DNA of 64,000 nucleotides from Planctomycetota bacterium (GCA_019636245.1 JAHBXX010000026.1:1-64000), one strand, 5' to 3'; positions 6,664-48,459 are shown, counted from the first letter of the stretch. The notes: generated by a model not told the origin, from the letters alone. Translations and numbers: made by a program.

Positions 6664-8252
6664 TTCGCGAGCCCCTTGACGACGCGCATCAGTTCCTTCG
6701 CCGCGGGCCGATCGGCTCGATGCTCGCCGACGTAGGCGTAGCGCACGATGCCGTCCTCGTCGACGATCACCGTGGTCGGATGGGCGAGGTCGCCGGCGAT
6801 GCCCAGCTGCTGCACCACCGCGAGGTCGGGGTCGTAGAAGACCCGGTAGGGCGGCGCGCCCTTCTCGAACGTCATCCGGTAGGCGCGCTCGAACGACTCC
6901 TCGTTCTCCTTGGCCCCCGGATAGAGCACCAGCACCTCGAGGCCCAGCGCCTCGAGTTCGCTCTGGCAGCGGGCCAGCGCCTCGGTCTGGGCGATGCAGT
7001 AGACGCACACCTCGCCGACGAAGCCGCGCAGGATCACCAACAGCACCGGCTTCTTGCCGCGGAACTGGCGCAGGTCGACCGTGGTGCCGTCGACGGCGGT
7101 CAGCACGTCGACCGGCAGCGGCTTGCCCTCGAGGTCGCTGCGGCGCCGCACGCCCGTGGTCTGCACGCCCGGCGCCGGCGCGTACTTGCGCAGCGACGGC
7201 CGCTGCGGGCTCGCGCCCTCGATGTAGTTCTGCACGTAGGTCTCGCGCTCCTGCTCCTGCAGCACGGTCAGCCGCGGCTGCATCGGCGCGGGGATGCGTT
7301 CGGGCTGCTGCGCGAGCTCGGCGACGACGGCCTTGGCGGCCGGGGATGGGGCGCCAGCCGGCGTCTCCGCCGCCAGCGCTGCCGTGTCGACCGGCTGCGC
7401 GATCTCGGCCGCCAGCTGGGCGACCGCGGGCGCGTCGCCGGCCGCGTCCGCCGCCGGTTGCCCGGCGCCGAACACGCCGTGCGCGACGATGCTGCCGCGC
7501 TCGTCGCGGGCCTCGAACACGCCGCCCGGCTCGGCGCCGCGCAGCGTGCAGCAGAACCGCAGGGCGCCGTTCTCGTGCCACAGGGTCCAGCGGCCGACGG
7601 CGGCGCCGTCCTGCAGCACGCCGGCCCGGCGCAGGGCGCCGCCCGGCCATTGCTCGCGCACGATGCGCACGCCCGGCCGCACGCCGAAGTCCTGCGCGCT
7701 CTCGTTGCCGGCCTCGTCCCAGATGCGCCAGACACCGATGCGCTGGCCGCGGTGGCAGAGGCCCGCCGCCTTCGGCTTGCCGCCCGGATGGAAGTACTGC
7801 CAGGGACCGGACAGCTTGCCGGCGTCGTACTGGCCGGACCGCTCGAGCGCGCCGTCCTGGCCGAAGAACTCCCACGGCCCGTCCTCGAAGTCGCCGACGT
7901 AGCTGCCGCGCGCGCGCGTCGCGCCATCGGCATGGAAGAACGTCCATTCGCCGGTGCGTTTGCCCCTGTCGTCGAAGGCGCCCGTCCACTCGATGCCGCC
8001 GTTCTCGAACCAGTAGGTCCACGGGCCGGTCTGGTGGTCGTCGGCGTAGCGGCCGTGCGCGCGGCGCTGGCCGGATTCGTAGTAGTAGGTCCAGTCGCCG
8101 GTCTGCAGGCCGCCCTCGAGCCGACCCTCGCGCTTGGTCAGGCCGTTGGCCCAGCGCTCGACGTGGGGCACGACCTGCCGGGCGAGGAACTTGCAGGACG
8201 GGCACAGGCCGGTGATGGCCAGCAGGGCCGCGGTGCGGAGGGTGGTCTTCAT
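6660..8252 (-). CDS. Exported MORN/YwqK-like repeat protein with C-terminal redoxin domain
   Basis: This 530-residue protein has an N-terminal signal MKTTLRTAALLAITGLC, probably lipid-anchored. Residues about 40-260 are repeats of the 'G.W.yy...G' type (TGDWTYYY, TGPWTYWF, TGEWTFFH, DGPWEFFG, SGPWQYFH), like MORN/YwqK toxin-antitoxin repeats. An Ala/Pro linker leads to an AhpC/TSA-redoxin domain (about 375-530) with a CVYC motif at Cys416 and Cys419 and a late cis-Pro region HPTTVIVDEDG. Thiol-disulfide or peroxide chemistry outside the cytoplasm is likely. It is upstream of, and overlaps by four bases, the kinase gene. The ATG at 8252 is chosen over upstream in-frame codons because the signal peptide starts there. 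Confidence 0.82.
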   Translation of the reverse strand: MKTTLRTAALLAITGLCPSCKFLARQVVPHVERWANGLTKREGRLEGGLQTGDWTYYYESGQRRAHGRYADDHQTGPWTYWFENGGIEWTGAFDDRGKRTGEWTFFHADGATRARGSYVGDFEDGPWEFFGQDGALERSGQYDAGKLSGPWQYFHPGGKPKAAGLCHRGQRIGVWRIWDEAGNESAQDFGVRPGVRIVREQWPGGALRRAGVLQDGAAVGRWTLWHENGALRFCCTLRGAEPGGVFEARDERGSIVAHGVFGAGQPAADAAGDAPAVAQLAAEIAQPVDTAALAAETPAGAPSPAAKAVVAELAQQPERIPAPMQPRLTVLQEQERETYVQNYIEGASPQRPSLRKYAPAPGVQTTGVRRRSDLEGKPLPVDVLTAVDGTTVDLRQFRGKKPVLLVILRGFVGEVCVYCIAQTEALARCQSELEALGLEVLVLYPGAKENEESFERAYRMTFEKGAPPYRVFYDPDLAVVQQLGIAGDLAHPTTVIVDEDGIVRYAYVGEHRADRPAAKELMRVVKGLAK

Positions 8253-8425
8253 GCTGCGGCGACCAGCGAGGGCGCGGGCCGATCGTGCAGTATCCCCTTG
8301 CCGGCCGCACGGCGCCACCTCGGGCATGGCGAGGGGTGCAGCTTGCCGCGCCGCGGCCAGGTTTCTCCGGCGGCACGCTGGCCGGCGGCGGCTGGTCGCT
8401 AGGCTCTCGGGCCGGAGACTGCGCC

Positions 8426-11400
8426 ATGCCCGTCCGCCTCGTCGCCTCTCTCGTCGTCCTGCTCGCCGGCATCTGGGCCGTCTCGTGTTCGAGCGGCCTC
8501 GGCAACGACCCCCGCCGCCGCGCGCCGGCAGCCGCCAGCGCCAATCCGAACCTGCCGGTCGGGCTCGACCTCGGTCTGGTGCCGACCGGCGGCCTCGGCG
8601 ACGACCTGGCGATCGCCGGCGCCGTGTTGCCGGCGATCGGCGCCACCCCGCAGCGCGAGGTGCTGTTCGTGGCCTTCACGACGCCGGCGCCGGCGAACGA
8701 CGGCGACGGCGCCGGCACCCCGCTGAGCCGCGATGCGACGACGGACGCCAACGGTGCCAGCGACGTGTTCGTCGCCCTGGTCTCGGCGCAGGACGTCGAA
8801 CGGCGCGCGTTCAGCCAGTCGCTGGCCGGCAAGTTCCGCCACCCGCGCTGCGCCACCTGCCACAGCATGCAGGCAGCCGACACGCTGGCGTTCGCGTCGT
8901 CGCCGCAGGCGCACGCGGGTCCGCCGCCGGGGCCCGGCTTCCCGAACAACCAGCCCGAGGTCTGCGCCCCGTGCCACGTCACCAGCAGCACCTTCCCGGT
9001 GGTGGGCTGGCAGGCGCCGGCGGCGTCGTTCGACATCCGGTCGAAGACCGTGCTGATGCTGTCGCAGATGGCGCAGAACGCGCCGGCCGACGAGGACGAG
9101 CACTTCGTCACCGACAAGCGCGTGCTGTGGGCGCTCGACTCCGGCATCCTGCCGCAGGTCGGCGGCCGCAATGGCGTCGCCGACGACGACCACGACGGCG
9201 TGTTCCAGGCCGAGGACATCGACGGCGTGCCGCGCACGGTGCCCGGCGGCTCGGTCGCCTTCCTGCACGAGATCGAGGCGTGGGAGGCCAGCGGCAAGGT
9301 CGTCACGGCCGCGGCCGCGGTCAAGGACGTGACCCTGGTCAGCCGGTCGTTCGGCACCAACAACGCCGGCAACGGCGCCTCGCGCGCCCCGGCGCTGCAA
9401 TGGGTGCCGAACCCTGGGTTCGATCCCGCGAACGCAGCCGCCACGAACCCGATCGGCACGCTGTTCGTCGCCTTCGAGTCCGACGCCAGCAACCTGGTCG
9501 CCGGCGACGGCAACGGCGCCACCGACGTCTTCCGCGCCGCGATCGAACTGCGCGCCGAACAGGACGCCGTCGGCACGTCGCTGGCGGGCGGCCTCAACCT
9601 GCAGGCGCTGAACACCGCGACGATCCTGTGCAGCGCGCGCAACGGCCTGACCGCGCCCGGCAACGGCGCCGCGCAGCGGCCGTCGCTCGGCGGCGCCAAC
9701 GCCGAGTTCATCGCCTTCGAGTCGGTGGCGACGAACCTCGTTGCCGGCTTCGTCGACGGCAACGGCCCGTCGGCCGCCGACGTCTACCTGCGCTCGGTCG
9801 GCGCCTCCGGCACGGGCACGCTGACGCAGCTGGTCAGCCACACGGTCGGCAACTCCGCGATCGGCGGCAACGGCGCCAGCGAACGGCCCGCGCTCGCCGC
9901 CGGCGGCGGCGCGATCGCCTTCGAGTCGACCGCCGACGACCTGATCGCCAGCGACGGCAACGGCGTGCGCGACGTGTTCGCCGCCACCACCGCCGGCGGA
10001 TCGCCGTTCGCGAAGGTGCGGGCCAGCGTCACCGACACCGGCGGCGAGGGCAGCGGCGGCGACAGCCGCAACGCCAGCGTGCACTTCGCCGCCGGCCGGG
10101 TGCGCGTCGCCTTCGAGTCCGACAAGACGAACCTCGACGCCGCGAAGGTCGCGGCGACCAACGTCTTCCTGTTCGACGGCGACGCCGGCACGACGAAGCT
10201 GCTGAACCAGCGGCTGTCGACGAGCTTCGCCGAAGTCGGCGCCGCGCCGGCGCGCCGGCCGGCATTCCTGCCCGACGGCTCGGCGATCGCGTTCGTCGCC
10301 GACGCCAACAACCTCGACGTGCTGCGCCCCGACACCAACCGCGGCGCCGACGTGTTCCTGGTCGAGACCGAGCAGATCGACGCCGGCCGCGTGCTGCCGT
10401 TCCGCATCAGCGTCACCACCGCCGAGGCGGCCAGCGCCAACGGCGATTCCGGCGCCCCGGTCGTCGGCAGCTTCGCCGGCAGCGTGAACTTCCCGACCGG
10501 CTTCGCCGCCTACCGCACCGCGGCGACCAACCTCGGCACCTCCGACACGACCGACGTGATGCTGGTGTTCCTCAACGAGACCTCGGGCATCCTGGTCGAC
10601 TTCGAGGCGGTGCCGGCAACGGGCACGGCCCCGCTCGAGGTGCAGTTCCAGGACCGCTCGTCCGGTTCGCCCACGGCCTGGGCCTGGGACTTCGACGGCG
10701 ACGGCACCGTCGACTCGACGCTGCAGAACCCGCGGCACGTCTACACCACCCCGGGCGACTACACCGTCGAGCTGGTGGCGCGCAACGCCAACACCGAGGG
10801 CTCGAAGCGCGAGACCGCCTTCGTGCACGTCACCGGGCCGGTGCAGGCCGACTTCACGGCCACGCCGACGACGACCGGCGGCGCGCCGCTGACGGTGCTC
10901 TTCCGCGACACCTCGACCGAGGCGAACGGGGCGATCACCGCCTGGGCCTGGGACTTCGACGGCAACGGCACGACCGACTCGACGCAGCAGAACCCCGCCC
11001 ACACCTACACGACGCCGGGCACGTTCACGGTGTCGCTGACCGCCACCGGCCAGAACGGCAGCAACACGGTGACGCGCGCGGGCCTGGTCACGGTCAGCGC
11101 ACCGGGACCGCTGGTGGCGGGCTTCACGTCGGTGGTGACGGCGAGTCCGCTGTTCGGCCGCACCGGCACCGCGGTCGGCAGCGTCTACGACGACGAGACG
11201 ATCACGTTCACCGACACGTCGACGGGCACGGTCAGCTCGCGGCTGTGGAACTTCGGCGACGGCACCACCGCGACCGGCAACCCGGTGACGAAGAGCTTCG
11301 CGCCGGGCACCTACGACGTGTTCCTGACCGTGACCGGGCCGGATGGCACCGACAGCGAGGTCAAGCCGGCGCTGATCACCGCGGTCGGCGGCTCGACGAC

Positions 11401-36195: not shown

Positions 36196-36446
36196 GTGGG
36201 TATCCCGTTGGATTTCGCGGGCTGATACGCACCAGCCGGCACCCGGTGAGAGGCGACGCTCGCCACATCCACACGCGGTACACGGACGGTGCGTTCCCGA
36301 TACCGAGGTCTGCACCAGGAGCGCCGCCCATGCGGCCACCCGACCCTCACGAGCGCTCGGCCAGGTACACCGCCAGGCCCGCGACCGGCACGCTCTGCTG
36401 CGCCCCGCTGCGCAGGTCCTTCAACCTAGGCGGATAGGAACTTCGA

Positions 36447-36590
36447 GCTGCGGTTCCGGCTGGCCTGACCGCAACCACCGTCGGCTGCGGCTGCCGATCG
36501 CCCGGTTCCGCGCGCCGCAGGACCCAGGCGCTTCGCCCGGATCCGCCCCGCACGACAGACCACGGGCTCGCCGCGACCCCTGCGCCCCGG
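36447..36590. repeat. Dispersed degenerate repeat, copy 2
   Basis: This aligns in the same orientation with 28465-28605. Its right end meets the IS91-like fragment at about 36593. The gap 36196-36446 to its left shows no gene. Confidence 0.55.
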
Positions 36591-36592
36591 TC

Positions 36593-36911
36593 CACTGCCG
36601 CACCGGCGCTTCGTCGGGCATCACCCGATCCAGCAGCCACCGAGCCGTGTCCGCCATGCGCCGCGCCCCGCACGACGGACAGAAGCCGCGCCCCTTGCAC
36701 GAGAACGCCACCACGTCGTCCTTGCCGCACCCGGCGCACCACGACCGCGCTACGCCGTGCGCGAGGATCCCGCAGCGCAGGAACGCTTCCCCCTCCCGCG
36801 CGCGCAGAACCGCGGCAGCGACCGCTCCCGCAGAGCCAGCCCCGCCCGCACCCCAGCCCACGCGCCCTGCACGACCCGGTAGAGCACCGACGCCTCCGGC
36901 CGGCGGCGCTG
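36593..36911 (-). mobile_element. IS91-like transposase 5' fragment (copy B) with frameshift
   Basis: The minus strand reads 'RRRPEASVLYRVVQ', then a two-base insertion shifts the frame, after which 'GEAFLRCGILAHGVARSWCAGCGKDDVVAFSCKG' region and 'FCPSCGARRMADTARWLLDRVMPD' follow, ending at PVRQW. The Cys pairs (CAGC, CPSC) are the zinc-binding domain of IS91-type transposases. The catalytic Y2 domain is missing. The outer 137 bases (36775-36911) repeat copy A at 33747-33881, which lacks the extra two bases. Confidence 0.8.
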
Positions 36912-36912
36912 G

Positions 36913-37185
36913 CCGGCCGACCGCGCCGCGGCCGACGACGCGGTGCGGCTGCCGTCGCGCAAGGACCAACCGGAGCCGGCGTGTCGGTTCGCGACGCCGG
37001 CGCGCATCGAGGCGGAGTGCCGGGCGTTCGTCGAGCGGCTCGGCGTCAAGTTCGGCAGCTTCGTGCATCCGGTGCGGGCGGCGCTGACCGGCACCGACAA
37101 GGGGCCGGGCCTGTTCGACGTCGTGTTCCTGCTGGGCCGTGATGCCTGCGTGCGGCGGCTGCGCGCCGCCGCGGTCGGCGCGTAG
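36913..37185 (+). pseudogene. Glutamyl-tRNA synthetase, C-terminal fragment
   Basis: About 90 codons open at the left, starting exactly where the IS91-like fragment ends. The sequence 'LGVKFGSFVHPVRAALTGTDKGPGLFDVVFLLGRDACVRRL' is the anticodon-binding C-terminus of bacterial GltX ('hplR.AltG...GP.lf.ll.llG...'). It ends in a normal stop at 37185. The catalytic part is not present in the window, so this is a displaced tail. Whether a full gltX exists elsewhere cannot be known here. Confidence 0.8.
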
Positions 37186-37450
37186 GGTGCCGCACGGCAT
37201 CGCCAGCCCGGTTCGTGGCGGTGGGCCATCCGTACGCTCGGGTTGATCCGCAGCTGTCGTGGTGTCCGAGGGGCGCGAGCCAGCGGAAGTCCTGCGTGGC
37301 GTTGCGCTGCGTTCGCTCCTCGGGTGTCGCCGAGCACGAGCCCTCGGTGGGGGTGCGCGTTCGTGCTTCGAGGCCCGGCCTCATGCACAGGCACGGGCCT
37401 GGACCGCGGCGCGGTCGAACGCTGCTGACGGAGCAAGGCTGGCCACAGGC

Positions 37451-37837
37451 TCAGGAGTTCGCTCGTGTTGCATCCTCGACGGGCGCAGGTGCCCTGGCCT
37501 CGAGGAGCAGCAGCGTTGCGCACATGGTGCCGAGACCGCCAGCGACGACGAAACGAACACGTCCGCCAGAGGGCAGTCCCCCAATACACGGGCAAGTTCC
37601 CGATGGTTCGATTGCAACAAGAGCCATTGCGACCAGGCAGAATGCCATGCCAATCCAGCACGCGGATCGGTGCCATCGGGTCAGCAACGCGACAGCCACC
37701 ACCAACTCGATCGCGCTGGCGGCGAGCAGCACCCACTCCGGCAGGTCCGAGGCGGGCTCAGCCGGTCGAACGGCATGCTTGCCGATGGCCAGCAGGGTCC
37801 ATTGCAGCGCCAGGAAGCAGCGCAGGATCCTGGCCAT
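37451..37837 (-). CDS. MauE/DoxX-like small membrane protein
   Basis: The protein has 128 residues with four predicted membrane helices ('FLALQWTLLAIG', 'WVLLAASAIELVVAVALL', 'ACWIGMAFCLVAMALVAI', 'VRFVVAGGLGTMCATLLLL'). A CPCIGG loop with two Cys after helix 3 matches the redox-type loop of MauE-like proteins, known for disulfide handling in methylamine dehydrogenase maturation. It begins two bases after the stop of the large gene 37840-39506 and is the last gene of that operon. Its neighbours include a 12-Cys exported protein, which fits a disulfide role (inference). Confidence 0.7.
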   Translation of the reverse strand: MARILRCFLALQWTLLAIGKHAVRPAEPASDLPEWVLLAASAIELVVAVALLTRWHRSACWIGMAFCLVAMALVAIEPSGTCPCIGGLPSGGRVRFVVAGGLGTMCATLLLLEARAPAPVEDATRANS

Positions 37838-37839
37838 CT

Positions 37840-39506
37840 TCAGTCACGCGGGACGGGCAGTGTCGCCACGAAGGTCTCGACACCCTCCGCAGCAGTGCCG
37901 CTCCCCGCCCGAATGTCCAGCGCGTGGGGTTCGTAACCCCTGACGTAGATCCTGCACGAGTGCACAGGTGCGGTGGAAAGGAAGGTGTGGCGATTGCCAA
38001 ACACGGTCAGCATGGACGAAGTGGGGCGCCCGCCTCGCCATGCTGGCACCGACTCCGTGCGGATGGCATCGAGCCAGGATATGGACAGGCCGAACAGCCC
38101 GGGCGGTGAACCATCGGGGCGGCGGACTTCGACCGCGTACCGCCGCAAGGCGGATCCGATGGGGATCCGCACGACGTCGAGGCTGCCCGGTGATGCAGTC
38201 CGGCGGGTCGTGGGGAAACACCCAGGAGGCAACTCGCCCGACGCACTGATGTCGTAGGGGCCTGCTGGAATCTGGACCTCGACCCCGAGACCTGCCGCCA
38301 GGAGCAGCGTGACCCCATCGATGCGCCAACCCAGATCCACGCGGGCACCGTCACAGTCGGCGATGTCGCCCGAGGCTGAGTCGACGAGGTGCACCCTGGT
38401 CCTTGCAGGTGCCGTGGCCAGCCCAGGCTCCAGGAAGAGGGTCTGGCGTGCGGTTTCGTGCAGACGGGACAGCGGAACGGTGCGGGTGCTCCAGCCGCTG
38501 GTGGCGCCACACACGGCGATGCGGGCGTTGGGCTCGCGTCCGGGCGCAAGGTCGCCGACCAGCACGTGGCAGTTCGGATGTAGCGCCTCCAGCCGTGCCG
38601 TCGCATGGCGCACGGCGAGGATGTTCGCGGGATGGCTGACCCAGCCGAGCGAGGAGGAGGGACCCGTGTCGAATCCGGCGGTGAGCACTGCGTCGCCTAC
38701 GAACTCGACGACGGCGGCCCACAGGTCGCGCGTGACGATCGTGACTTCGCCAGGGGCGTCGACCGCCAGGCACTCGCTCGCATTGGCGATCAGGAATGGG
38801 CCATGGTCGAGGTTGGCGCTCACGTGGTGGCGCCCGCGGAGCAGGTCGTCGAAGACGAGTAGTCCACCTCGATCGGTCCTGCCGAAACAGGCTGGGTCGG
38901 CCTGTCGCTCCACGCCGCCGTACCCGTGGTACACGGCTCCCGGAATGGTGCAGTCGGGGGTAGTCGGGAGGTCTCGGCGGCTCAGCGCGACGGAGAAGCC
39001 TGCCACGGGCGCGCCGGTGGCGTCGACGACGGCGACGCGACAGGTCGCACAGGGCTGCAAGACCACGTCGTGGCTGGATCCGGCGTCCACCGCGATGAGT
39101 CGGTGCGGCACGAAGCCGCGATGGCGGATCCAGAGGCCACGCGGCTCGATCAGGTTGTGGACCGGGACGACCGCGACCCCATCGCTGTCCGTGGTCCCGA
39201 TCGGTGCCTGTGACCAGGCGGGGGTCGTGGGTCGGGAGCGGGCCAGGGGAGGATGTCCGACTGGGGCAGTGCCCTGCCCGCCGGGTTGTGGACGGTGATC
39301 GTCGCGGTCGTGGCGAGTGTTCGTTCGTAGGGGGAGGCACCTGAGAGGGGCGGCGGCATGGCGGCTCGTCCGCTGCTTCGAGGTGTGTCGTGCACCGCGT
39401 GCACGCTGCTGCTGGCGCTGTCGTGAGGCGTCGCTGGCCAGGCAAGCAGGATCGTCGCGATGGCCATCGTGCCGACCGCCACCCGCCACCGCGTAGCCCG
39501 CCTCAT
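37840..39506 (-). pseudogene. Anchored carboxypeptidase-regulatory-like protein, one apparent frameshift
   Basis: The N-terminal 80-90 residues (MRRATRWRVAVGTMAIATILLAW..., a signal or anchor, then 'TVHNPAGRALPQSDILPW') are in one frame. The rest, 'APIGTTDSDGVAVVPVHNL' onwards to the stop at 37840, is in another. One indel at about 39205-39245 restores a continuous protein of about 555 residues with CarboxypepD_reg-like units ('VAVVDATGAPVAGFSVAL', 'VDAPGEVTIVTR'). This could be a sequencing error or a real inactivation. The ATG overlaps the TGA of the Cys-rich gene upstream (ATGA), so the operon structure is intact. Confidence 0.65.
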
Positions 39507-39943
39507 GGTTGCAGGCACTGGCACATGCGGTAGCCGAGCCCGACCTGTCCGTTCCAGCCCTGGCTGTGGTCTGGCCGGATGCAGCGGTGTCCTGTCGAGC
39601 TACATCCGGATGGACTTTCGTAGCAGGTCACACCGATCAGCACGCCGCCGCCTTGCTGCGCTCCGCCGTAGCAGTTGACGACGTTGCCGCCGTCGCGGCA
39701 CCAGCACCAGAACGTGTTCTCGACGACCTGCGACGGTTCGATCGTGCAAACGGACGGACAGCTTCCTTGGCACTTGAGGTCCTCGAAGCCGACTCCATTC
39801 CAGATGCCGAACCACTCACAGGGCGAAGCATCCTCGTCGTACGGTAGCAAGACGGCGCCGATCGCAGTGGCCAACAGGAAGAAGATCGCGAGGGTGCCGT
39901 GGATCGCGGCTCCCGCCTCGCGCGTGTTCGCTCGGACGTGCAT
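39503..39943 (-). CDS. Small exported protein with 12 cysteines
   Basis: The protein has 146 residues. One hydrophobic segment near the N-terminus ('IHGTLAIFFLLATAIGAVLLP') serves as signal or anchor; everything after it carries 12 Cys, with pairs such as C-x3-C-x3-C near 60, CWC, and a terminal CQC. The even number suggests disulfides. It shares spacing features (C-x5/6-R-C, terminal Cys) with the exported protein at 40411 on the other strand. It is first in an operon with an anchored protein and a MauE-like protein. Family not recognised. The ATG at 39943 is used; the frame is open upstream. Confidence 0.65.
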   Translation of the reverse strand: MHVRANTREAGAAIHGTLAIFFLLATAIGAVLLPYDEDASPCEWFGIWNGVGFEDLKCQGSCPSVCTIEPSQVVENTFWCWCRDGGNVVNCYGGAQQGGGVLIGVTCYESPSGCSSTGHRCIRPDHSQGWNGQVGLGYRMCQCLQP

Positions 39944-40322
39944 GTGGCCCCTTTGGCAGGTCTTCCCCGCCGCTGGCAGCGTACCGATCGGGGGGGGGTG
40001 TGGCGTCAAGGGTTGCACACTCCCTTCGGCCGCGGCCCGTCGGCGGTGGGCTCGACGACGTCGCGGTAGAACCGCAGCACGTCGGCATCGTCGGCGTGGT
40101 CGAGGCCGAACCATGCCATCGCTGCGCCCTCTGCAGTGGTCGCGAGCCCCAGGGCTCAGGGGGCGAATGGTTGCTCTCGGCAGGCTGCCGGACCGACCAG
40201 AGTCTACGAGGTAGGCCCTGGCTGGCCCTTGCCTGGTACAGGGGCGCAACTGGCGGTCAGTACCAAGATTGAGCCCTCGGATCCTGGCGCCTGCTCCGCT
40301 TGCTGGTTTGCCCCGTGTAGGC
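39944..40322. other. Intergenic between the divergent Cys-rich operons
   Basis: No convincing gene. A minus-strand frame ending at 40006 encodes about 37 residues (MAWFGLDHADDADVLRFYRD...) and may be the tail of a lost gene. From about 40250 rightwards the base composition becomes markedly less G+C-rich. Confidence 0.45.
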
Positions 40323-40351
40323 TTGACGCGCTATCTACACATCGCTACCGT
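40323..40351 (+). promoter_or_regulatory. Possible sigma-70-like promoter of the Cys-rich operon
   Basis: TTGACG (40323-40328) and TACCGT (40346-40351) are 17 bases apart. The -35 matches well and the -10 only at three positions. Transcription would start near 40358, about 50 bases before the ATG at 40411. Prediction by eye only. Confidence 0.3.
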
Positions 40352-40360
40352 CCGCTCGGT

Positions 40361-40389
40361 TCCCGGGCGACTCCCGGGCGACTCCCGGG
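40361..40389 (+). repeat. Short tandem repeat in the operon leader
   Basis: The 11-base unit TCCCGGGCGAC occurs twice and then partially again (TCCCGGG). Each unit contains the palindrome CCCGGG. It lies between the possible promoter and the first start codon, where an operator or mRNA structure would act. Confidence 0.5.
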
Positions 40390-40410
40390 GACATCAATAG
40401 AGAGGGACTC

Positions 40411-40809
40411 ATGCTACAGCGATGCCTCCTCGGGTCTGTGGGCCTTGCACTCTGTCTTCCGCTCTTGTCCTCGATCTCTGAGGTATCGGCTAGGCCGGTG
40501 CTCGATGAGCCCGAGCACTGCGTCGAGGCTCATGCCGACCCGAACTCCGTGCCTCGCAACGCAGATTGCGGGGGAGGTTGTCGGACCGACCCTGGGTGCA
40601 GCGGGCTTGTTTGGATCCAGGCCAGCATAGGTGGCGATTGTGTTCCGGGGGGCAACGGATGCTCGCTGTTCGGAGGCCAGAAGGAAGTCGTTCTGCAGGT
40701 CTACAAGTGCGACGCGGTCACGATTGACTGTCCTGCAGGCATGTCGCGGTGTAGTTGGGGCTCCCAGGGGACCGTGTCCAGTTGGATTGGGAACTGCAAG
40801 AACACATGA
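40411..40809 (+). CDS. Small secreted cysteine-rich protein
   Basis: The protein has 132 residues. A signal peptide (about 1-28, 'LGSVGLALCLPLLSSI...SARP') precedes a mature part with 10 Cys ('CGGGCRTDPGC', 'CVPGGNGC', 'CDAVTIDCPAGMSRC', final Cys three residues from the end). The even number suggests five disulfides. AGAGGG about 5 bases before the ATG is a ribosome site. It is first of four codirectional genes. The base composition is much less G+C-rich than the genome around it. Function unknown; a secreted peptide or structural protein is possible. Confidence 0.72.
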   Translation: MLQRCLLGSVGLALCLPLLSSISEVSARPVLDEPEHCVEAHADPNSVPRNADCGGGCRTDPGCSGLVWIQASIGGDCVPGGNGCSLFGGQKEVVLQVYKCDAVTIDCPAGMSRCSWGSQGTVSSWIGNCKNT

Positions 40810-40846
40810 ATGAAGTCTGGGTAGATCCATGTCTGTGACGCGGACC

Positions 40847-40852
40847 GGAAGG
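40847..40852 (+). promoter_or_regulatory. Shine-Dalgarno deciding the ATG start at 40861
   Basis: GGAAGG lies 8 bases before ATG 40861. It overlaps the alternative GTG start at 40852, which is therefore unlikely. Confidence 0.6.
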
Positions 40853-40860
40853 TGTTAGCC

Positions 40861-41826
40861 ATGATGATGGGTGCGATTGTAGCCCTGTTGCCGATTCAGG
40901 ATCCCAGTGCTGTGGCAGCCATGCTGCGACGATTCGAGGTTGCCTGTTGCGCTCTTCTGCAGCCCATGAGGTTCAGTGTTGTGAAATCCGTTCTATGTGA
41001 GCATAGGGGCGCTGGGGCGGGCGCGCTGGTCCGCGGACTCTTCTCTGATGCGGGGCCGATCTCCTGGACCGACCGGGATGAGGTGGTTCGGCTGTTGCTT
41101 GATCCTGCCCGAGAGCCGCTCACGGTATGTGCCCCAATCGTTATGAGTGCTCCACCCTGGCATTATGAAGAGATCCTAGATGAAAGCGGATGCACTACTC
41201 GCGTCACCCTGATGAGTGACGGCGAGGTCGACGTCACTAAGGTACAGCATCCGAAGGGTTCTCAGTGCTCTGTGGTCTGGACTCAGCCGACCGAGCGGTT
41301 CTCCGTGGGTAGCCTCGTGTCTCCTATCCCATCTAGTCGTCGTTTCGTGGCGGACTGGTTGGCGACTTGGAAATGGAGTGTGATCGCTGGTTCGCCATCC
41401 GACGAGGCGACGATCCGGGTCACCAAGGAGGGGAGCCCGAACTCGTATCTGGTCCGAGTTCGCGAGGATGGACTTCCTCGTGTAGTAGCAATGACGTCGG
41501 AGGACGCCTCCTCAGGGTTCTTGGCCTACTTTGAATACTCCGAGGATTCCGGTAGTCCGGTCTGGGTCTCGTTGATTCACAGGGTTGCATGGAGACCTGG
41601 TGGGATGACGATGGTCTCGATTTCGATCAGCGGTCACGCTTTGATAGATAGCGCGGTCATCAGAGAGAAGAAGATTTGGGTGCATGTTGGTGATATGATT
41701 TGCGACGGGCGGACTCGTCCTTACACCGTCTTGTCCGTGACGCCTGACACCGGAGATCCTCGCATCCCTCACGTCGAGATCCGGGAGGTTCTGGACGGCA
41801 TCACGCCGACCGAGGTGAGGAAGTGA
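40861..41826 (+). CDS. Unknown protein of the Cys-rich operon
   Basis: The 321-residue protein is beta-rich in the second half, with strands such as 'YLVRVREDGLPRVVAM', 'FLAYFEYSEDSGSPVWVSLIHRVAW' and 'KIWVHVGDMICDG'. This overall plan vaguely recalls LolA/outer-membrane-lipoprotein-sorting-like proteins, but no motif confirms it. The N-terminus MMMGAIVALLP is weakly hydrophobic; export is uncertain. Its TGA overlaps the GTG of the DUF1573-like gene (GTGA), so the two are coupled. Codon use is A/T-richer than in surrounding genes, which supports recent transfer. Confidence 0.65.
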   Translation: MMMGAIVALLPIQDPSAVAAMLRRFEVACCALLQPMRFSVVKSVLCEHRGAGAGALVRGLFSDAGPISWTDRDEVVRLLLDPAREPLTVCAPIVMSAPPWHYEEILDESGCTTRVTLMSDGEVDVTKVQHPKGSQCSVVWTQPTERFSVGSLVSPIPSSRRFVADWLATWKWSVIAGSPSDEATIRVTKEGSPNSYLVRVREDGLPRVVAMTSEDASSGFLAYFEYSEDSGSPVWVSLIHRVAWRPGGMTMVSISISGHALIDSAVIREKKIWVHVGDMICDGRTRPYTVLSVTPDTGDPRIPHVEIREVLDGITPTEVRK

Positions 41827-42809
41827 GTGACTGGCCTGTCGCTGGCGTGCTCATGCTGCTGGGCGTGCTTCTTGGGTCTTGTTCTGAGGTTACGGCGCCG
41901 ATCGTCCTCGAGCATGATCTCGGGACAGCGCCGGTCGGATCGACGATTGTCCAGGATGTCGAGGTGTTGAACCACACGATGCACGCTTGGAGTCTTGGTG
42001 ATATTCGCACGACTTGCGATTGTGTCTCCGGCGAGTTGCTGGTCTCCGTAGTCGCGCCGGGGGACCGAGCGATACTGCGCGTCAAGGTCCGCATGTCGCA
42101 GGAGGGGATGCACAAGCATGATTTGTATGCGGCAATGGTGTATCGCCATTCTGGCCGAGTTGCGGCTCAGGATATCGTTGTAAGGCTCTATGCGCAGGCG
42201 TACGGGCCACCCTGGACGGCACCGAGCTCGCGTCTGATATCGACACCGAGCCAACCGGATAGGTTTCAGATCGACTTCTCCATACCCGTCAGCCCATCGG
42301 GAAAGCCGTGCCTTGCGGCTGTGGCCATCCAGCAAGGCAATATTTTCGGGATTGGCGGGATGCTCCCGGGTCTGGATGTGTCGTTGCAGGAGCCGGTGGT
42401 TCGCTCGGGTCGAGTGATATGGAAGGCTCACGTCAGTGTCCCTGCAATGCCAGGGTCGTTCGAGGGTCTGACGCATATCCGCGCCAGCATTCCCGACCTA
42501 GGCATTGACTTTCCAGAGGTGCAAGTCCGTTGGGTGCCGGCACCTTCGGAAGACGTGTGGTTGATCATGAAGGAACATAGCTCGATCGAAATGGAGCACG
42601 AAGGCGGGTGTGCGGAGGATGCGATCGCAGAAGGCGAGAGGGCATGCGCAGCTGACGATTTGCGCGATGGGGTGAGTGATCATGAGGTCGTCGTGCAGCC
42701 CGTCACGAACGGTGTGCGATTGACGACTGGAGAAGGACTGGGCGTGGGAACGGTGAGGTTGCATCGTGGTGGCAGCGCCCGCCTCGTCAAGGTCCTGGTC
42801 GTGCCGTGA
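41823..42809 (+). CDS. DUF1573-like lipoprotein
   Basis: The protein has 328 residues. The signal ends in LLGSC, a lipobox. Residues about 25-125 are a DUF1573-like Ig/fibronectin-type domain: 'HDLGTAPVGSTIVQDVEVLNHT' followed by the characteristic 'TTCDCVSG' and 'VAPGDRAILRVKV'. A second beta region follows without a clear name. DUF1573 proteins are periplasmic or surface proteins, frequently near redox-related and secreted-peptide genes in Bacteroidetes and Planctomycetes. Both the start (GTGA with the previous gene) and stop (GTGA with the next) overlap, so translation is coupled throughout. Confidence 0.8.
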   Translation: MSDWPVAGVLMLLGVLLGSCSEVTAPIVLEHDLGTAPVGSTIVQDVEVLNHTMHAWSLGDIRTTCDCVSGELLVSVVAPGDRAILRVKVRMSQEGMHKHDLYAAMVYRHSGRVAAQDIVVRLYAQAYGPPWTAPSSRLISTPSQPDRFQIDFSIPVSPSGKPCLAAVAIQQGNIFGIGGMLPGLDVSLQEPVVRSGRVIWKAHVSVPAMPGSFEGLTHIRASIPDLGIDFPEVQVRWVPAPSEDVWLIMKEHSSIEMEHEGGCAEDAIAEGERACAADDLRDGVSDHEVVVQPVTNGVRLTTGEGLGVGTVRLHRGGSARLVKVLVVP

Positions 42810-45202
42810 AGATGACTCAGAGGCGACTGCTGGTCGGGTCGATTGCTGGGTTGATCGCGAGCTCAGCAATCATGTGGTGGATCATGGATCCATCGCTGCA
42901 GCCGACGATTGGTGTCGAAGGGGCCGGGCGAATTGCAACGGCGACGTCCATGGTGGGGCTCGAGGACGGTGCGCGATCCTCGGTTGCTGAAGACTCTCAG
43001 GTCGAGAGCCATGTGCTTCCCGATGCGCGCGAGGAGATTCATCAGGCGCGGTTTGTGACCGTGATGGTGCTCGACCATCGGGGGCAGGCGCAGATGGGCT
43101 GCGACATCCTGCTGTGCAGGAGTGGCCAGCCGGCCTGGTGGCTGCGGGAACGCAGTGATTCGATCGTCTACCAGGCCGACCCCGGCGGACCGATCTACAC
43201 GCTCCCGGGCGAAGTCATCCCGTCGCCGCAGCCCATCGCTGCTGCCGTCGCCGCTGGACTCACCGACGAGCGAGGAGTCTGCAGGCTCGAGGTTCCCGAC
43301 CTGTGCGCTTGGGGAACGGTGTGGTGCCGGTTCGGATCGCGTTGGATGGGGCGATCCTGGCAGGCTGGTATCCAGGAGGTGCGATTCGTGGCAGAACAAA
43401 CATGCGAGGTGTCGGGCACCCTGGTCGCACGAGACAGCACTGCTTTGCGGTTGCCCGAGGGCTCGATGCTGGTCGGTCAGGATCCGAGTACCGGAGAGTT
43501 GCACGCGGGGACTGTGGACGAATCGGGAGTCTTCTCGTGCGCGGTCAAGGCCGATGCGCCTGCACTCCTGCGCCTCCTCGATGCCGGCGAATGGAGCGTC
43601 GCTGCGCCGACACCTTTGGTGCGATGTGGTGCTGGGGTCCGACTCGTGGTGGAGAGGAGCGAGCGGGTCGCTCTCGTGGACGTGGCCGGCGCGCCGGTCG
43701 AACTCGCTGAGGTCTTCGTGCTGGAACGGCGCGCGCATGAAGTGATGAGTCGACGAATCGGCGCAAGAGCCGACGGCGTTCACCGGGTGTGGCAGGCTGA
43801 CTCTCGCCGAGAGTTCGCAGATCGTCCAGGACTCGTGCTGATCAGGGCAGAAGGGTGCGTGAGCAGTAGCTTCGAACGCTCGGCCGACCTCCAAGTTCGC
43901 ACTCTCGTTCGAGGTCGTGATCCGCGAGTTCGGGTCGTTGGCGAGGGTGGTGATCTGTTGCGCATCGACATCGGCGGGCACGGGACTTCCGCATCGCCAC
44001 TGAGCTGTCTCTTCGCCGGGCGACTGCCTCCAGGGGGGGGCCTCGAATGCGAGGTGCCGGCGGGCGTGGTGGTGCGCCTGACGATGTCGAGACGCGGCAT
44101 TACGATCTTGGATCGCGAGATGGCTACAGCCGAGGATGTCACCGTGGCGGCTGGCGACCCGACGACCGGACGTCTGGCGGTGCACGCCGAGGGCGACTGG
44201 GCCGTGGAAGTGAATGTGGAGGTCGGTGGGAGGTCGCGGGGCGGTTCCCGGGCCGGCGATGGTGTCTGGCTCTTCGCCGACCTCGCGCCCGGGCCGGTGG
44301 TCGTCTCGGGGATACCCAAGGCAGGACACCACGATTGGCGTGAGGAGTTCGGTATGCGGCGTGGAATCGTCTGCGAAGTGGTGGCGGGAGCAGAGACCAA
44401 CATCGACCTTCTGCAGCCTCTTTCGCGGCGGACGCAGATCGTCGTCGTGGATGCGCAGGGCGGGCAGTTGCCCAACGCCGCGATCAGGGACCGGGCAAAG
44501 TCGACACGAGTCACTGGGCCCTTCGGAGAGATCGAAGGGTGGGACGCCTGGAAGCCGCCGCTCGCGTTGGCAGAAGTGCCCCCCGGACTATGGCTTCCCC
44601 TGCCGATCCGCGGTCAGCCCACGGCTGCAGGTGAGGTCGCGGTCGCGACGGTCGAGACACGCTGGCTCGACGCCCTGGCGCCCATGCTGGTCAGGGTCTT
44701 CACCGGCGACGTCGAGCGGGACTGGAAGAGCATCACCTACACGAGTGCGCGGCGAACCGGCAGGCTGGTGGTGCACGGGCAGCCGGATGCTCCTGGCGTC
44801 GCGTCCTGGCCGATGGATCTTGATGGCGAACTGAACGTCGAGATCGCGCTGCGAGGGGGCGGCCTGGTGCGTTCCGAGTCGGTTGCCGTGGCGGGGAGTC
44901 GACGCTACGACCTCCGGGTGGCGGGGCCAGCGACGGGTGGATGGTGCAGGTTGCGACTGTTCGTCCCGCCGCGCGACGACGGCCTGATCGAGACGGTCAA
45001 CGTCGTGGTCTTCGACGCGAGCGATCGCCTGCTGCAAGCCAGCGACTCCGAGTGCCTTGCCCTGCGAACGGGATGCTGGACCGACGTGCTGACGCGGCCT
45101 GGAAGGAAGCGGATCGTCGCGCGCGCGCGCAGCGACGACGCGACCGCCGTCTGGGCCGGGAACGTCGATCGGGAACTGGCCGCCGTTCAGCTGGTCTGGT
45201 AG
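42806..45202 (+). CDS. Large anchored carboxypeptidase-regulatory-like protein
   Basis: The protein has 798 residues. A signal anchor (about 6-26, 'RRLLVGSIAGLIASSAIMWWIM') is followed by a long beta-sandwich exported region with CarboxypepD_reg-like units, such as 'VTVMVLDHRGQAQMGCDILL' and 'QIVVVDAQGGQLPNAAI'. It is the positional counterpart of the frameshifted 37840-39506 gene in the divergent operon and similar in build, although pairwise similarity is low to the eye. The GTG at 42806 overlaps the upstream stop (GTGA); ATG 42812 is the alternative. Likely a surface scaffold for the operon's small proteins (inference). Confidence 0.72.
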   Translation: MKMTQRRLLVGSIAGLIASSAIMWWIMDPSLQPTIGVEGAGRIATATSMVGLEDGARSSVAEDSQVESHVLPDAREEIHQARFVTVMVLDHRGQAQMGCDILLCRSGQPAWWLRERSDSIVYQADPGGPIYTLPGEVIPSPQPIAAAVAAGLTDERGVCRLEVPDLCAWGTVWCRFGSRWMGRSWQAGIQEVRFVAEQTCEVSGTLVARDSTALRLPEGSMLVGQDPSTGELHAGTVDESGVFSCAVKADAPALLRLLDAGEWSVAAPTPLVRCGAGVRLVVERSERVALVDVAGAPVELAEVFVLERRAHEVMSRRIGARADGVHRVWQADSRREFADRPGLVLIRAEGCVSSSFERSADLQVRTLVRGRDPRVRVVGEGGDLLRIDIGGHGTSASPLSCLFAGRLPPGGGLECEVPAGVVVRLTMSRRGITILDREMATAEDVTVAAGDPTTGRLAVHAEGDWAVEVNVEVGGRSRGGSRAGDGVWLFADLAPGPVVVSGIPKAGHHDWREEFGMRRGIVCEVVAGAETNIDLLQPLSRRTQIVVVDAQGGQLPNAAIRDRAKSTRVTGPFGEIEGWDAWKPPLALAEVPPGLWLPLPIRGQPTAAGEVAVATVETRWLDALAPMLVRVFTGDVERDWKSITYTSARRTGRLVVHGQPDAPGVASWPMDLDGELNVEIALRGGGLVRSESVAVAGSRRYDLRVAGPATGGWCRLRLFVPPRDDGLIETVNVVVFDASDRLLQASDSECLALRTGCWTDVLTRPGRKRIVARARSDDATAVWAGNVDRELAAVQLVW

Positions 45203-45392
45203 GCGGGGCCAGCCTCCCCGTGGTCCGATGCCGTTGGCGCCGGGTCCGCCGACCGCGCAGGGCGGTCTGGCCTGCCGGTGGCAATCCGCCGCCCTTGCCC
45301 CTGCTCCCGAGGCCGCCTGGCGACGCCCACAGCCGCGATCGGAACAAAATGGCCCGCTTGACGGGTGCAGATTGTCCAGTACACCGCCCGCT

Positions 45393-46904
45393 GTGCTGCG
45401 AACCCCGCTGCCCGAACTCGACCCTGCCGCGCCGACCTCGCTGGTGGCGCAGGTCGCCGCCTTCTACGCCGGCGCGATCCGGGACGGGCGCATGGCCCCC
45501 GGCGACCGCCTGCCGCCGATCCGCGAGGCGGCGCGCGCCTGTGCGATCGCGCGGGCCACGGTGCAGGCAGCCTACCAACAGCTCGCCGCCGACGGCCTCG
45601 TCGAGGCCACCGTCGGCCGCGGCACCATCGTGTGCGAACTGCCGGCGACCTCGCGGCTGCACGCCGCAGGCCAGGGGTCGGCGCCGGTCCCCGCGCTGAG
45701 CCCGTACGCCCGCGCCGCGCTGCGCCGCACCCAGGACATGCCTGGGGCGCCGCCGCTGCCGGCGGGCGTCGAACTGGTGGCGAACCTCGCCGAACTCGCG
45801 CCCGACGGCGAGCAGTTCCCGGTCGCCGAATGGCGGGCGGCGATGGACGCGGTGTTGCGCCAGCGCGGCGGCGAGGTGCTCGGCTACGGCCACGAGCCCA
45901 ACGGCCTGCCCGAACTGCGCGAGGCGATCGCCGCGCGCCTGCGCGACGTCGATCCGACGGCGACCGCCGACGGCATCCTGGTCACCGCCGGCGCCCAGCA
46001 GGCTCTCGACCTCGTGCTGCGCACGCTGTGCGCACCCGGCGACACGGTGCTGGTGACCGATCCGTCGTACCACCAGATGCACGGGCTGCTGCGCGCGCAC
46101 GGCCTGCAGGTGGCGGCGATCCCGTTCGGGCCGGCGGGTCTCGACGTGGCCGCCCTGCGGCAGCGGCTCCAGCGCGGCGACGTGCGGCTGCTCTACCTGA
46201 TGCCGACGTTCCACAACCCGACCGGCCGCACGCTCGACCTCGCCCAGCGGCACGAACTGATCGAGACGCTGCGGTCGACCGAGGTCACGGTCGTCGAGGA
46301 CGAGTACCAGCAGTCGCTGCGCTGCCGCGGCGAACCGCTGCCGACGCTGCGTTCGCTCGACCCGCGCCGGCGGACCGTGACCGTGGCCACCTTCAGCAAG
46401 GAGCTGTTCCCCGCGCTGCGCATCGGCTGGGTGCAGGCCGAGGCCGAACTGCTCGCCGCCATGGCGGCGGTGAAGCGCTTCATGGACCTCGAGACCAGTC
46501 CGCTGCTGCAGGCCGCGCTGGTCGAGTTCCTGCGCCGCGGCAGCCTCGACCGGCACCTCGACGAACTGCGCGGCGAACTGCGCCGCCGCCACGCCGCGCT
46601 GCAGGCCGCCGCGCATCGGCACCTGCCGCCGGGATGCCGCCTCGGCGATCCCGACGGCGGCTTCGTCACCTGGCTCGAACTGCCCGGCGACGGACTCGGC
46701 GACCGCCTCGCCGAACTCGCCGCCGCGCGCGGCGTGCGCGTCGTGCCCGGATGCGTGTTCGAACTGCACGGCCGGCCGTCGCGCGGCGTGCGGCTCTGCC
46801 TCGCGCGCGCGCCGCTGCCGGCGATCGACGCCGGCCTCGCCGTGCTCGGCGCCGCCGCCCGCGAACTGCTCGCCGGTCCGGCGCCGGTGCGCGCCTTCCT
46901 CTGA
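45393..46904 (+). CDS. pdxR: MocR/PdxR-family regulator (GntR HTH plus aminotransferase domain)
   Basis: The protein has 503 residues. The winged-helix GntR domain (about 15-80, 'DRLPPIREAARACAIARATVQAAYQQLAADGLV') is fused to a fold-type I aminotransferase domain (about 120-490) with PLP lysine Lys336 in TFSKELFP and 'YLMPTFHNPTG'. Such regulators sense PLP and control pdxST. The gene is 27 bases upstream of pdxS and in the same direction; PdxR genes are more often divergent, so here it may autoregulate the whole operon. The start is uncertain: GTG 45393 is used, TTG 45372 is possible. Confidence 0.88.
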   Translation: MLRTPLPELDPAAPTSLVAQVAAFYAGAIRDGRMAPGDRLPPIREAARACAIARATVQAAYQQLAADGLVEATVGRGTIVCELPATSRLHAAGQGSAPVPALSPYARAALRRTQDMPGAPPLPAGVELVANLAELAPDGEQFPVAEWRAAMDAVLRQRGGEVLGYGHEPNGLPELREAIAARLRDVDPTATADGILVTAGAQQALDLVLRTLCAPGDTVLVTDPSYHQMHGLLRAHGLQVAAIPFGPAGLDVAALRQRLQRGDVRLLYLMPTFHNPTGRTLDLAQRHELIETLRSTEVTVVEDEYQQSLRCRGEPLPTLRSLDPRRRTVTVATFSKELFPALRIGWVQAEAELLAAMAAVKRFMDLETSPLLQAALVEFLRRGSLDRHLDELRGELRRRHAALQAAAHRHLPPGCRLGDPDGGFVTWLELPGDGLGDRLAELAAARGVRVVPGCVFELHGRPSRGVRLCLARAPLPAIDAGLAVLGAAARELLAGPAPVRAFL

Positions 46905-46931
46905 AACCCATCTCCCCCACCGCCGCGAACC

Positions 46932-47849
46932 ATGAGTCCCCAGCATCCACCCCTTTCCGTCCCCGGCTTCACCGCCGAGGAAGTCGTCAGCAAGATCGGC
47001 TTCTGCGAGCAGCTCAAGGGCGGCGTCATCATGGACGTCGTCGATGCCGAGCAGGCGCGCATCGCCGAGGAGGCCGGCGCCTGCGCGGTGATGGCGCTCG
47101 AGCGTGTGCCGGCCGACATCCGCAAGCACGGCGGCGTCGCCCGCGCCAGCGACCCGGGCATGATCGAGGCGATCCAGAAGGCGGTCAGCATCCCGGTGAT
47201 GGCGAAGGTGCGCATCGGCCACTTCGTCGAGGCGCAGATGCTCGAGGCGATGGAGGTCGACTGCATCGACGAGAGCGAGGTCCTGACGCCGGCCGACGAG
47301 CAGTTCCACGTCGACAAGCGCGTGTTCAAGACGCCGTTCGTCTGCGGCTGCCGTGACCTCGGCGAGGCGCTGCGGCGCATCCACGAGGGCGCGGCGCTGA
47401 TCCGCACCAAGGGCGAGGCCGGCACCGGCAACGTCGTCGAGGCGGTGCGCCACATGCGCGCGCTGATGGCGCAGATCCGCGAGCTGCGCGGCCAGGACGA
47501 GCGGTTCCTCGAGCGCAAGGCCAGCGAGCTGCGGGTGCCGTTCGAGCTGGTCGCCTGGGTCGCCGAGCACGGCCGGCTGCCGGTGCCGAACTTCTCGGCC
47601 GGCGGCGTCGCGACGCCCGCCGACGCGGCGCTGATGATGCAGCTCGGCGCCGAGGCGGTGTTCGTCGGCTCCGGCATCTTCAAGTCCGGCAATCCCCGGC
47701 AGCGCGCGCGCGCGATCGTGCGCGCGGTGACGCACTACGAGGAGCCGAAGGTGCTCGTCGAGGTGTCGAAGGGCCTCGGCGAGCCGATGGTCGGCATCGA
47801 CATCAACACGCTGCCCGCGCAGGAGCGACTCGCCGGCCGTGGCATCTGA
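46932..47849 (+). CDS. pdxS: Pyridoxal 5'-phosphate synthase lyase subunit
   Basis: The 305-residue protein makes PLP from ribose 5-phosphate, glyceraldehyde 3-phosphate and ammonia delivered by PdxT. The catalytic lysines are visible: Lys92 in [10 protein letters not shown] and Lys160 in [10 protein letters not shown], 68 residues apart as in known PdxS. '[31 protein letters not shown]' region is the phosphate-binding end of the barrel. Length is normal. It overlaps pdxT by 11 bases. Confidence 0.98.
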
Positions 47850-48459
47850 GGCGGGGAACGGGGCGCCCCTGGTCGGCGTGCTGGCGCTGCAGGGCGACTT
47901 CGCCGAGCACGAGGCGGCGCTGCAGCGCGTGGGTCTGCGCACGCGCCAGGTGCGTTCGCCGGCGCAGCTCGAGGGCCTGCACGGCCTGGTGCTGCCGGGC
48001 GGCGAGAGCACGACGATGCTGCGGCTGCTCGAGGTCGAGGGGCTGTGGGAACCGCTCGGCCGCGCGCTGCGCAGCGGCCTGCCGGTGCTGGCGACCTGCG
48101 CCGGCATGATCCTGCTCGCCGAACGCGTCGAGAACCCGAGCCAGCGCAGCTACGGCCTGCTGCCGATCACCGTGGTGCGCAACGGCTATGGGCGGCAGGT
48201 CCATTCCGGCACCTTCGCGCTCGACTCCGGGGTGCTGCCGGCGGGGACGACCGGCACGTTCATCCGCGCGCCGCGCATCACCGCGGTCGGGGATGGATGC
48301 GAGGTGCTGGCGCGGCGGGGCGGCGACGCCGTGCTGGTGCGGCGCGGGCCCATCCTGGCCGCGTGCTTCCATCCCGAGCTGCAGGCGGAGCCGCATCCGG
48401 TCACGGCGATGTTCGTCGATGCGGTGCGGGCTGGGAGGAGCATGGTCGGCGTGGCTTGA
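47839..48459 (+). CDS. pdxT: Pyridoxal 5'-phosphate synthase glutaminase subunit
   Basis: The 206-residue class I glutaminase releases ammonia for PdxS. The triad is present: Cys87 in ATCAGM, His178 and Glu180 in FHPE; PGGEST is the PdxT-specific loop. GTG 47839 lies inside the end of pdxS, giving an 11-base overlap and likely coupling. Following it, 48460-48744 shows no gene. Confidence 0.96.

Follow-up and report, generated by a model that had tools for sequence, protein, structure and literature searches.

Planctomycetes carry a previously undescribed three-gene system in which a small cysteine (Cys)-rich exported protein is encoded together with an anchored beta-sandwich protein and a membrane protein related to MauE. 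We describe it from a stretch of 64,000 nucleotides of a Planctomycetota bacterium (GCA_019636245.1 JAHBXX010000026.1:1-64000), here called the window, where the three genes form an operon on the minus strand. The trio co-occurs beyond chance and recurs across the phylum, and can therefore be tested as a real system. Its distribution is patchy, and its genomic surroundings point to mobility. We propose, with about even confidence, that the operon is a mobile envelope module of three parts: a Cys-rich client, a MauE-like redox partner, and an anchored binder.

By sequence, the Cys-rich proteins form a new family with 12 conserved Cys, predicted to be rich in disulfides and accompanied by a putative natural redox partner in several planctomycete lineages. 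With the trio one can test directly whether MauE-type proteins act in general as dedicated oxidases of Cys-rich clients, a question that dates from the work on the mau cluster. The compact Cys scaffold, with loops that vary almost without restriction, is also of interest in its own right.

Recurrence of the three-gene operon

In the window, the operon consists of the following genes:

39506..39943, minus strand: Cys-rich exported protein, 146 residues; N-terminal hydrophobic segment and 12 Cys; identified from its sequence and from profile relatives in 20 genomes
37840..39506, minus strand: multi-domain beta-sandwich protein (CarboxypepD_reg-like) with an N-terminal anchor; start codon ATG at 39506, apparent frameshift near 39250
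37451..37837, minus strand: MauE-like four-helix membrane protein; identified from conserved residues, an AlphaFold2 (AF2) model, and PF07291 matches in orthologues

The genes are closely coupled. As an earlier note on this DNA had stated, the Cys-rich and anchored genes share an ATGA overlap (39503-39506, the TGA stop of the 12-Cys gene being 39503-39505), and the MauE-like gene starts two bases past the anchored-gene stop, with ATG at 37837. Junctions are likewise tight or overlapping at other loci, with overlaps in L042 and L085. The note had also asked whether the neighbours are conserved, and for this operon profile searches strongly bear it out: in many genomes the anchored gene follows the Cys-rich gene, and a MauE-like gene usually stands after both.

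The three families co-occur in this order across planctomycete metagenome-assembled genomes (MAGs). In a genome of the same genus (G001) the trio is present in unchanged order, with identities of 36%, 29%, and about 34%; the anchored orthologue, at 29%, is matched with E 1e-52, and the Cys-rich gene, near a contig edge, is without a start. Searched with a profile of the anchored protein, 20 of the 34 genomes in the bacterial family gave relatives, many matching over a single domain only; several of the longer matches were preceded by a Cys-rich exported gene and followed by a MauE-like gene. A profile built from eight Cys-rich proteins matched 19 of 154 genomes of the class, of which 16 were upheld after reading the neighbourhoods; the matches in G075, G088, and G037 were weak, with nothing in the G075 neighbourhood. 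A search of the phylum, in which the ten best candidates per genome were scored and counts are lower bounds, added G046 and G081 within the class and G197 and G245 outside it. The final tally is 23 Cys-rich loci with readable neighbours, from 20 genomes and 334 kb of DNA. About 18 of the 154 class genomes have a Cys-rich gene; copies number four in G055 and two in G008.

Adjacency is nearly constant. An anchored gene adjoins the Cys-rich gene in 22 of 23 loci, and the family profile matches next door in 19 of 23. Weaker matches stand in the same place in L115 (E 0.004) and L116 (CarboxypepD_reg, 1.6e-4), L114 has a CarboxypepD_reg protein (5e-20) before the Cys-rich gene instead of after it, and in L083 the anchored neighbour is unrelated to the family. 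Of the 22 evaluable loci (L048 is cut by a contig end), 15 have a MauE-like gene in the next position. All 15 MauE-profile matches in the 334 kb fall inside such trios, and the five evaluable loci where an anchored gene stands without a Cys-rich one gave none (one-sided Fisher test, p 0.0098, indicative only because ascertainment is partly shared: five of the trios went into the first MauE profile). The Cys-rich and anchored proteins have diverged in a correlated way (Mantel p 0.013), as have the anchored and MauE-like proteins (p 0.005), a pattern that fits inheritance of the three as a unit.

The three protein families

The Cys-rich proteins are built on a repeated scaffold. In the window protein the spacing is C15C3C3C13CxC - 8 - C15C6C6C19CxC, that is, two six-Cys units; the typical family pattern is C-x15-C-x3-5-C-x3-15-C-x10-21-C-x-C, followed by 7-13 residues and the same pattern repeated. 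Across 19 aligned members ten Cys are invariant and an eleventh nearly so, little else is conserved, and identity is about 20-30%. When the profile of half 1 is aligned to that of half 2, the score is 20.5, against a maximum of 13.1 over 60 column shuffles and 9.1 for the reversed profile; this excess over both controls indicates that the family arose by tandem internal duplication of a six-Cys unit. Five loci (L086, L087, L088, L116, L117) have a reduced final CxC together with a CC at the start of the second half, which hints that these Cys pair. Members are about 90-120 residues long after the signal. None of the 19 matched a family in Pfam, and searches against the PDB gave no match either, iron-sulfur (Fe-S) matches being at chance level only; the window protein had no match in NCBIfam. 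Locus L085 encodes a further small 12-Cys exported protein together with a short anchored protein (7642-8765, minus strand), convergent with the trio; its spacing lies outside the family.

The MauE relationship is clearer in the orthologues than in the window. The earlier label of MauE-like is sub-threshold for the window protein itself, which scores 13.5 bits against PF07291 (cut-off 27) and 21.6 against DoxX_3, and is upheld by its relatives: of 14 orthologues, 9 reach E<=0.01 against PF07291, the best 6.7e-8, ahead of every other family. Orthologue bit scores, where given, lie slightly under the curated cut-off (25.5 vs 27). Common to the 14 members are K20 and a CxCxG motif (C82, C84, G86), all invariant, and a nearly invariant E44. 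The AF2 model has four helices (mean confidence, pLDDT, 85.8), and charge counts fit an N-in/C-in arrangement with the CxC loop on the outer face; the loop is thus predicted to face outside. VKOR-like entries and TMEM35A/NACHO were considered as structural relatives of this model and rejected, their Foldseek E-values being at chance level only.

The anchored gene was first described as a single gene of roughly 555 residues. Its ATGA overlap and family match stand; a single open frame does not. The frame that starts with the ATG at 39506 ends at 39150, and the main frame (37840 to about 39250) is without a start of its own. The family profile matches its N-terminus in the first frame (39252-39506) and the remainder in the second, which places a frameshift, genuine or an assembly error, near 39,250. 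The CarboxypepD_reg assignment fares similarly: the domain (PF13620) is recognised in 8 of 12 relatives and is sub-threshold in the window copy. The anchored partners resemble other anchored proteins with this domain in that respect, but constitute a separate family (profile A6, about 550 residues) whose genes here usually lie beside a Cys-rich gene.

Members of the anchored family without a Cys-rich or MauE-like gene occur at L041, L043, L044, and L049, and G016 has three such copies. Large proteins near anchored-family genes, at L049:2529-5789 and L081:2929-5922 (both minus strand), appear by eye to combine a sigma factor with beta-sandwich repeats.

Proposed function and its alternatives

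The sequence comparisons establish the gene families and their order, the duplicated Cys scaffold, the MauE relationship, and the patchy distribution. Export, anchoring, and membrane orientation are predicted from sequence; the pairing of disulfides, the flow of electrons, binding between the products, their location, and their purpose we infer as follows. The small protein would be exported and would form up to six disulfides on its duplicated six-Cys scaffold, leaving the loops free to vary. The MauE-like protein would be its dedicated redox partner, with the outward CxC, together with a conserved Lys and Glu placed within the helices or close to them, making or repairing those disulfides. 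The anchored protein, fixed by its N-terminal helix, would bind the oxidised Cys-rich protein in the envelope and hold or present it. Coupling in an operon of a MauE-type protein and a twelve-Cys client makes a dedicated disulfide partnership the simplest reading. The model for such a role is the mau cluster, where MauE has been proposed to form disulfides in the small, disulfide-rich beta subunit of methylamine dehydrogenase (PMC7794033, citing van der Palen 1997). The earlier interpretation, that the module folds its Cys-rich proteins, is consistent with this link. Display at the surface, the other part of that interpretation, is a candidate role only; the anchor is an N-terminal hydrophobic segment.

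Together the three products would most likely serve to recognise neighbouring cells or ligands, or to compete with them, and not for housekeeping. We hold this with modest confidence, and favour it because the module is sporadic, present in several copies in some genomes, linked to insertion sequences (IS), and hypervariable. A fuller version is tentative: a mobile system whose dedicated membrane oxidase would mature hypervariable secreted proteins with twin six-Cys units, these being held by a cognate anchored receptor and serving as a diversifying scaffold for recognition or competition between cells.

Several observations weigh against the envelope module. Seven evaluable Cys-rich loci are without a MauE-like gene, and the gene is therefore either not strictly needed or acts in trans. 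Anchored-family genes also occur without any Cys-rich gene. The anchored gene of the window is apparently frameshifted and may be dead. The AF2 model of the Cys-rich protein is poor (pLDDT 55) and was rejected as evidence of fold or disulfides; the MauE-like model gave no Foldseek match at E<=0.001, the best PDB entry being at E 0.29.

Known systems share parts of the trio. In the mau cluster, a MauE-family membrane protein is likewise encoded with a small 12-Cys exported protein whose disulfides it is thought to form; here the client family is another one, the partner is an anchored beta-sandwich protein, and dehydrogenase subunits and MauD were not recognised nearby. The candidate clusters for ribosomally synthesised and post-translationally modified peptides found by decRiPPter in Streptomyces have MauE homologues beside a small candidate modified peptide (PMC7794033), but those clusters are actinobacterial, whereas the protein described here has about 90-120 residues, conserves only its Cys, and is nearly always beside an anchored beta-sandwich protein. 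In the literature we found no paper that joins MauE, DUF1573, and Cys-rich proteins.

An unlikely alternative is toxin-immunity antagonism, with the Cys-rich protein as a secreted, disulfide-stapled effector aimed at neighbouring bacteria and folded by the MauE-like protein, and the anchored protein as the producer's receptor or immunity protein. Hypervariable loops on a fixed Cys scaffold, sporadic and multi-copy presence, low guanine-plus-cytosine (GC) content, and transposase, Eco57I-methylase, or AbiEii-like neighbours would all suit it. Against this, PADLOC gave no defence-system match for eight proteins and Pfam no toxin match for the 19 Cys-rich members; the partner far exceeds the size expected of an immunity protein, and a dedicated exporter was not seen.

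It is rather improbable that the Cys-rich proteins are cross-linked structural parts of the proteinaceous planctomycete envelope, held by the beta-sandwich protein. Such a role would recall the YTV-domain Cys-rich proteins reported from cell-wall preparations of Planctomycetales (PMC8567305), which are similarly Cys-rich and of the planctomycete envelope. However, the present proteins (19 scanned) have no Pfam match, are small, are operonic with a redox protein, and are patchy instead of lineage-wide. Presence in about 18 of 154 class genomes, in variable, rearranged DNA, is unexpected for a structural part, and hypervariability speaks against lattice contacts.

Redox or metal sensing is distinctly improbable. 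Here the Cys-rich protein would bind metal or sense thiol state and act on a sigma factor by way of the anchored protein, as suggested by a sigma-70 region 2 gene directly upstream on the same strand in L048 and a possible one (by eye) overlapping in L117. The sigma link is clear in one locus only, however, an exported protein with 12 regularly spaced Cys more typically uses them for disulfides than for metal binding, and Fe-S matches stay at chance level.

That the trio is an ordinary methylamine-dehydrogenase-like assembly is largely refuted: the MauE relation and a small 12-Cys exported protein recall MauE and MauA, but homology to MauA was rejected, with no light-chain match in Pfam or the PDB and a different architecture of duplicated six-Cys units, and large subunit, MauD, and MauG were not recognised beside the trio (gene calls by eye). 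The partial spacing CxC-8-C-15-C, which we take to be MauA-like, is a lead only. No other mau genes were seen by eye around the loci, and the neighbours scanned with Pfam belong to other families.

The plus-strand operon and the genomic setting

The plus strand of the window carries a second set of genes, and an IS fragment adjoins the minus operon:

40411..40809, plus strand: second Cys-rich exported protein, 132 residues; probable divergent member, judged by Cys spacing
40852..41826, plus strand: protein of 321-324 residues, no family assigned; identified from sequence
41823..42809, plus strand: DUF1573-like predicted lipoprotein; lipobox LLGSC, GTGA overlap, borderline Pfam match
42806..45202, plus strand: 798-residue N-terminally anchored protein; N-terminal hydrophobic anchor, GTGA overlap, no family match
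36421..37200, minus strand: IS91-type transposase fragment (Zn_Tnp_IS91), adjoining the minus operon

The layout of this operon agrees with the earlier description. Its GTGA overlaps are present at 41823 and 42806; the secreted protein, described as having 10 Cys, has 12 in total and 10 after the signal; and the 321-residue protein has that length from an in-frame ATG at 40861 (324 from a GTG). The family labels hold in part. In the DUF1573-like lipoprotein the lipobox LLGSC is present and the DUF1573 (PF07610) score is borderline (26.7 bits in a six-frame search, 23.9 in hmmscan, cut-off 26.1). The 798-residue protein has the N-terminal hydrophobic anchor, and Pfam finds no CarboxypepD_reg domain in it.

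The plus-strand Cys-rich protein is probably a divergent member of the family. Its spacing, C15C3C5C13C6C15C6C6C14C, is the family pattern minus one Cys of each CxC. All nine Cys gaps fall inside slightly widened family ranges, set after the protein had been seen; random placement achieves this in 8 of 400,000 trials. Its score against the family profile was reached by 87 of 20,000 shuffles, and hhalign gave no significant match to the family. A match to it in G007 was rejected, there being no such gene at the locus. A scaffold common to both small proteins is probable, which makes a back-to-back pair of related operons plausible. Conserved neighbours were also expected for this operon, and the search for them failed: its three companions (321, 328 [DUF1573-like], and 798 residues) have no relatives above chance in the bacterial family. 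The 321-residue protein has none in 60 related genomes, and the 798-residue protein has no match in a scan of genome contigs, no Pfam family, and no significant hhalign match to A6. The plus operon is therefore not demonstrated as a module, and DUF1573, put forward earlier as a module part, lies outside the recurrent trio.

The source assembly comprises 4.64 Mb in 89 contigs. The nearest relatives of the AroA-like end of the window are in Planctomycetota MAGs at <=71% identity, informative at phylum level only. That the contig belongs to the organism follows from window positions 45,337-48,418 (GntR/aminotransferase and SOR/SNZ genes), to the right of the operons, which align collinearly with three related genomes at 80-83% identity. 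In L198, L199, and L200, the DNA at window position 45337 is joined, in reversed orientation, to DNA matching about 866-1,337, and both operons are missing from the junction; by this comparison, a segment of about 44 kb (window 866-45337) is inverted or otherwise rearranged relative to the three relatives. An IS110 transposase lies at 2-952, near one end of that segment. Part of the IS91 fragment (about 36908-37180) has copies elsewhere in all five relatives searched, and the operons have a GC content of 61-69%, against about 72% in the surroundings.

At other loci, the neighbours include an integrase-core or transposase gene (L007, L047), an Eco57I-type methylase (L050), and a weak AbiEii match (L051). 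The protein that overlaps the Cys-rich gene in L117 (4918-5637, plus strand) is sigma-like by eye, with no Pfam match, and the sigma-70 region 2 protein directly upstream of the Cys-rich gene in L048 is encoded at 1435-2109 on the minus strand, as is the Cys-rich gene itself.

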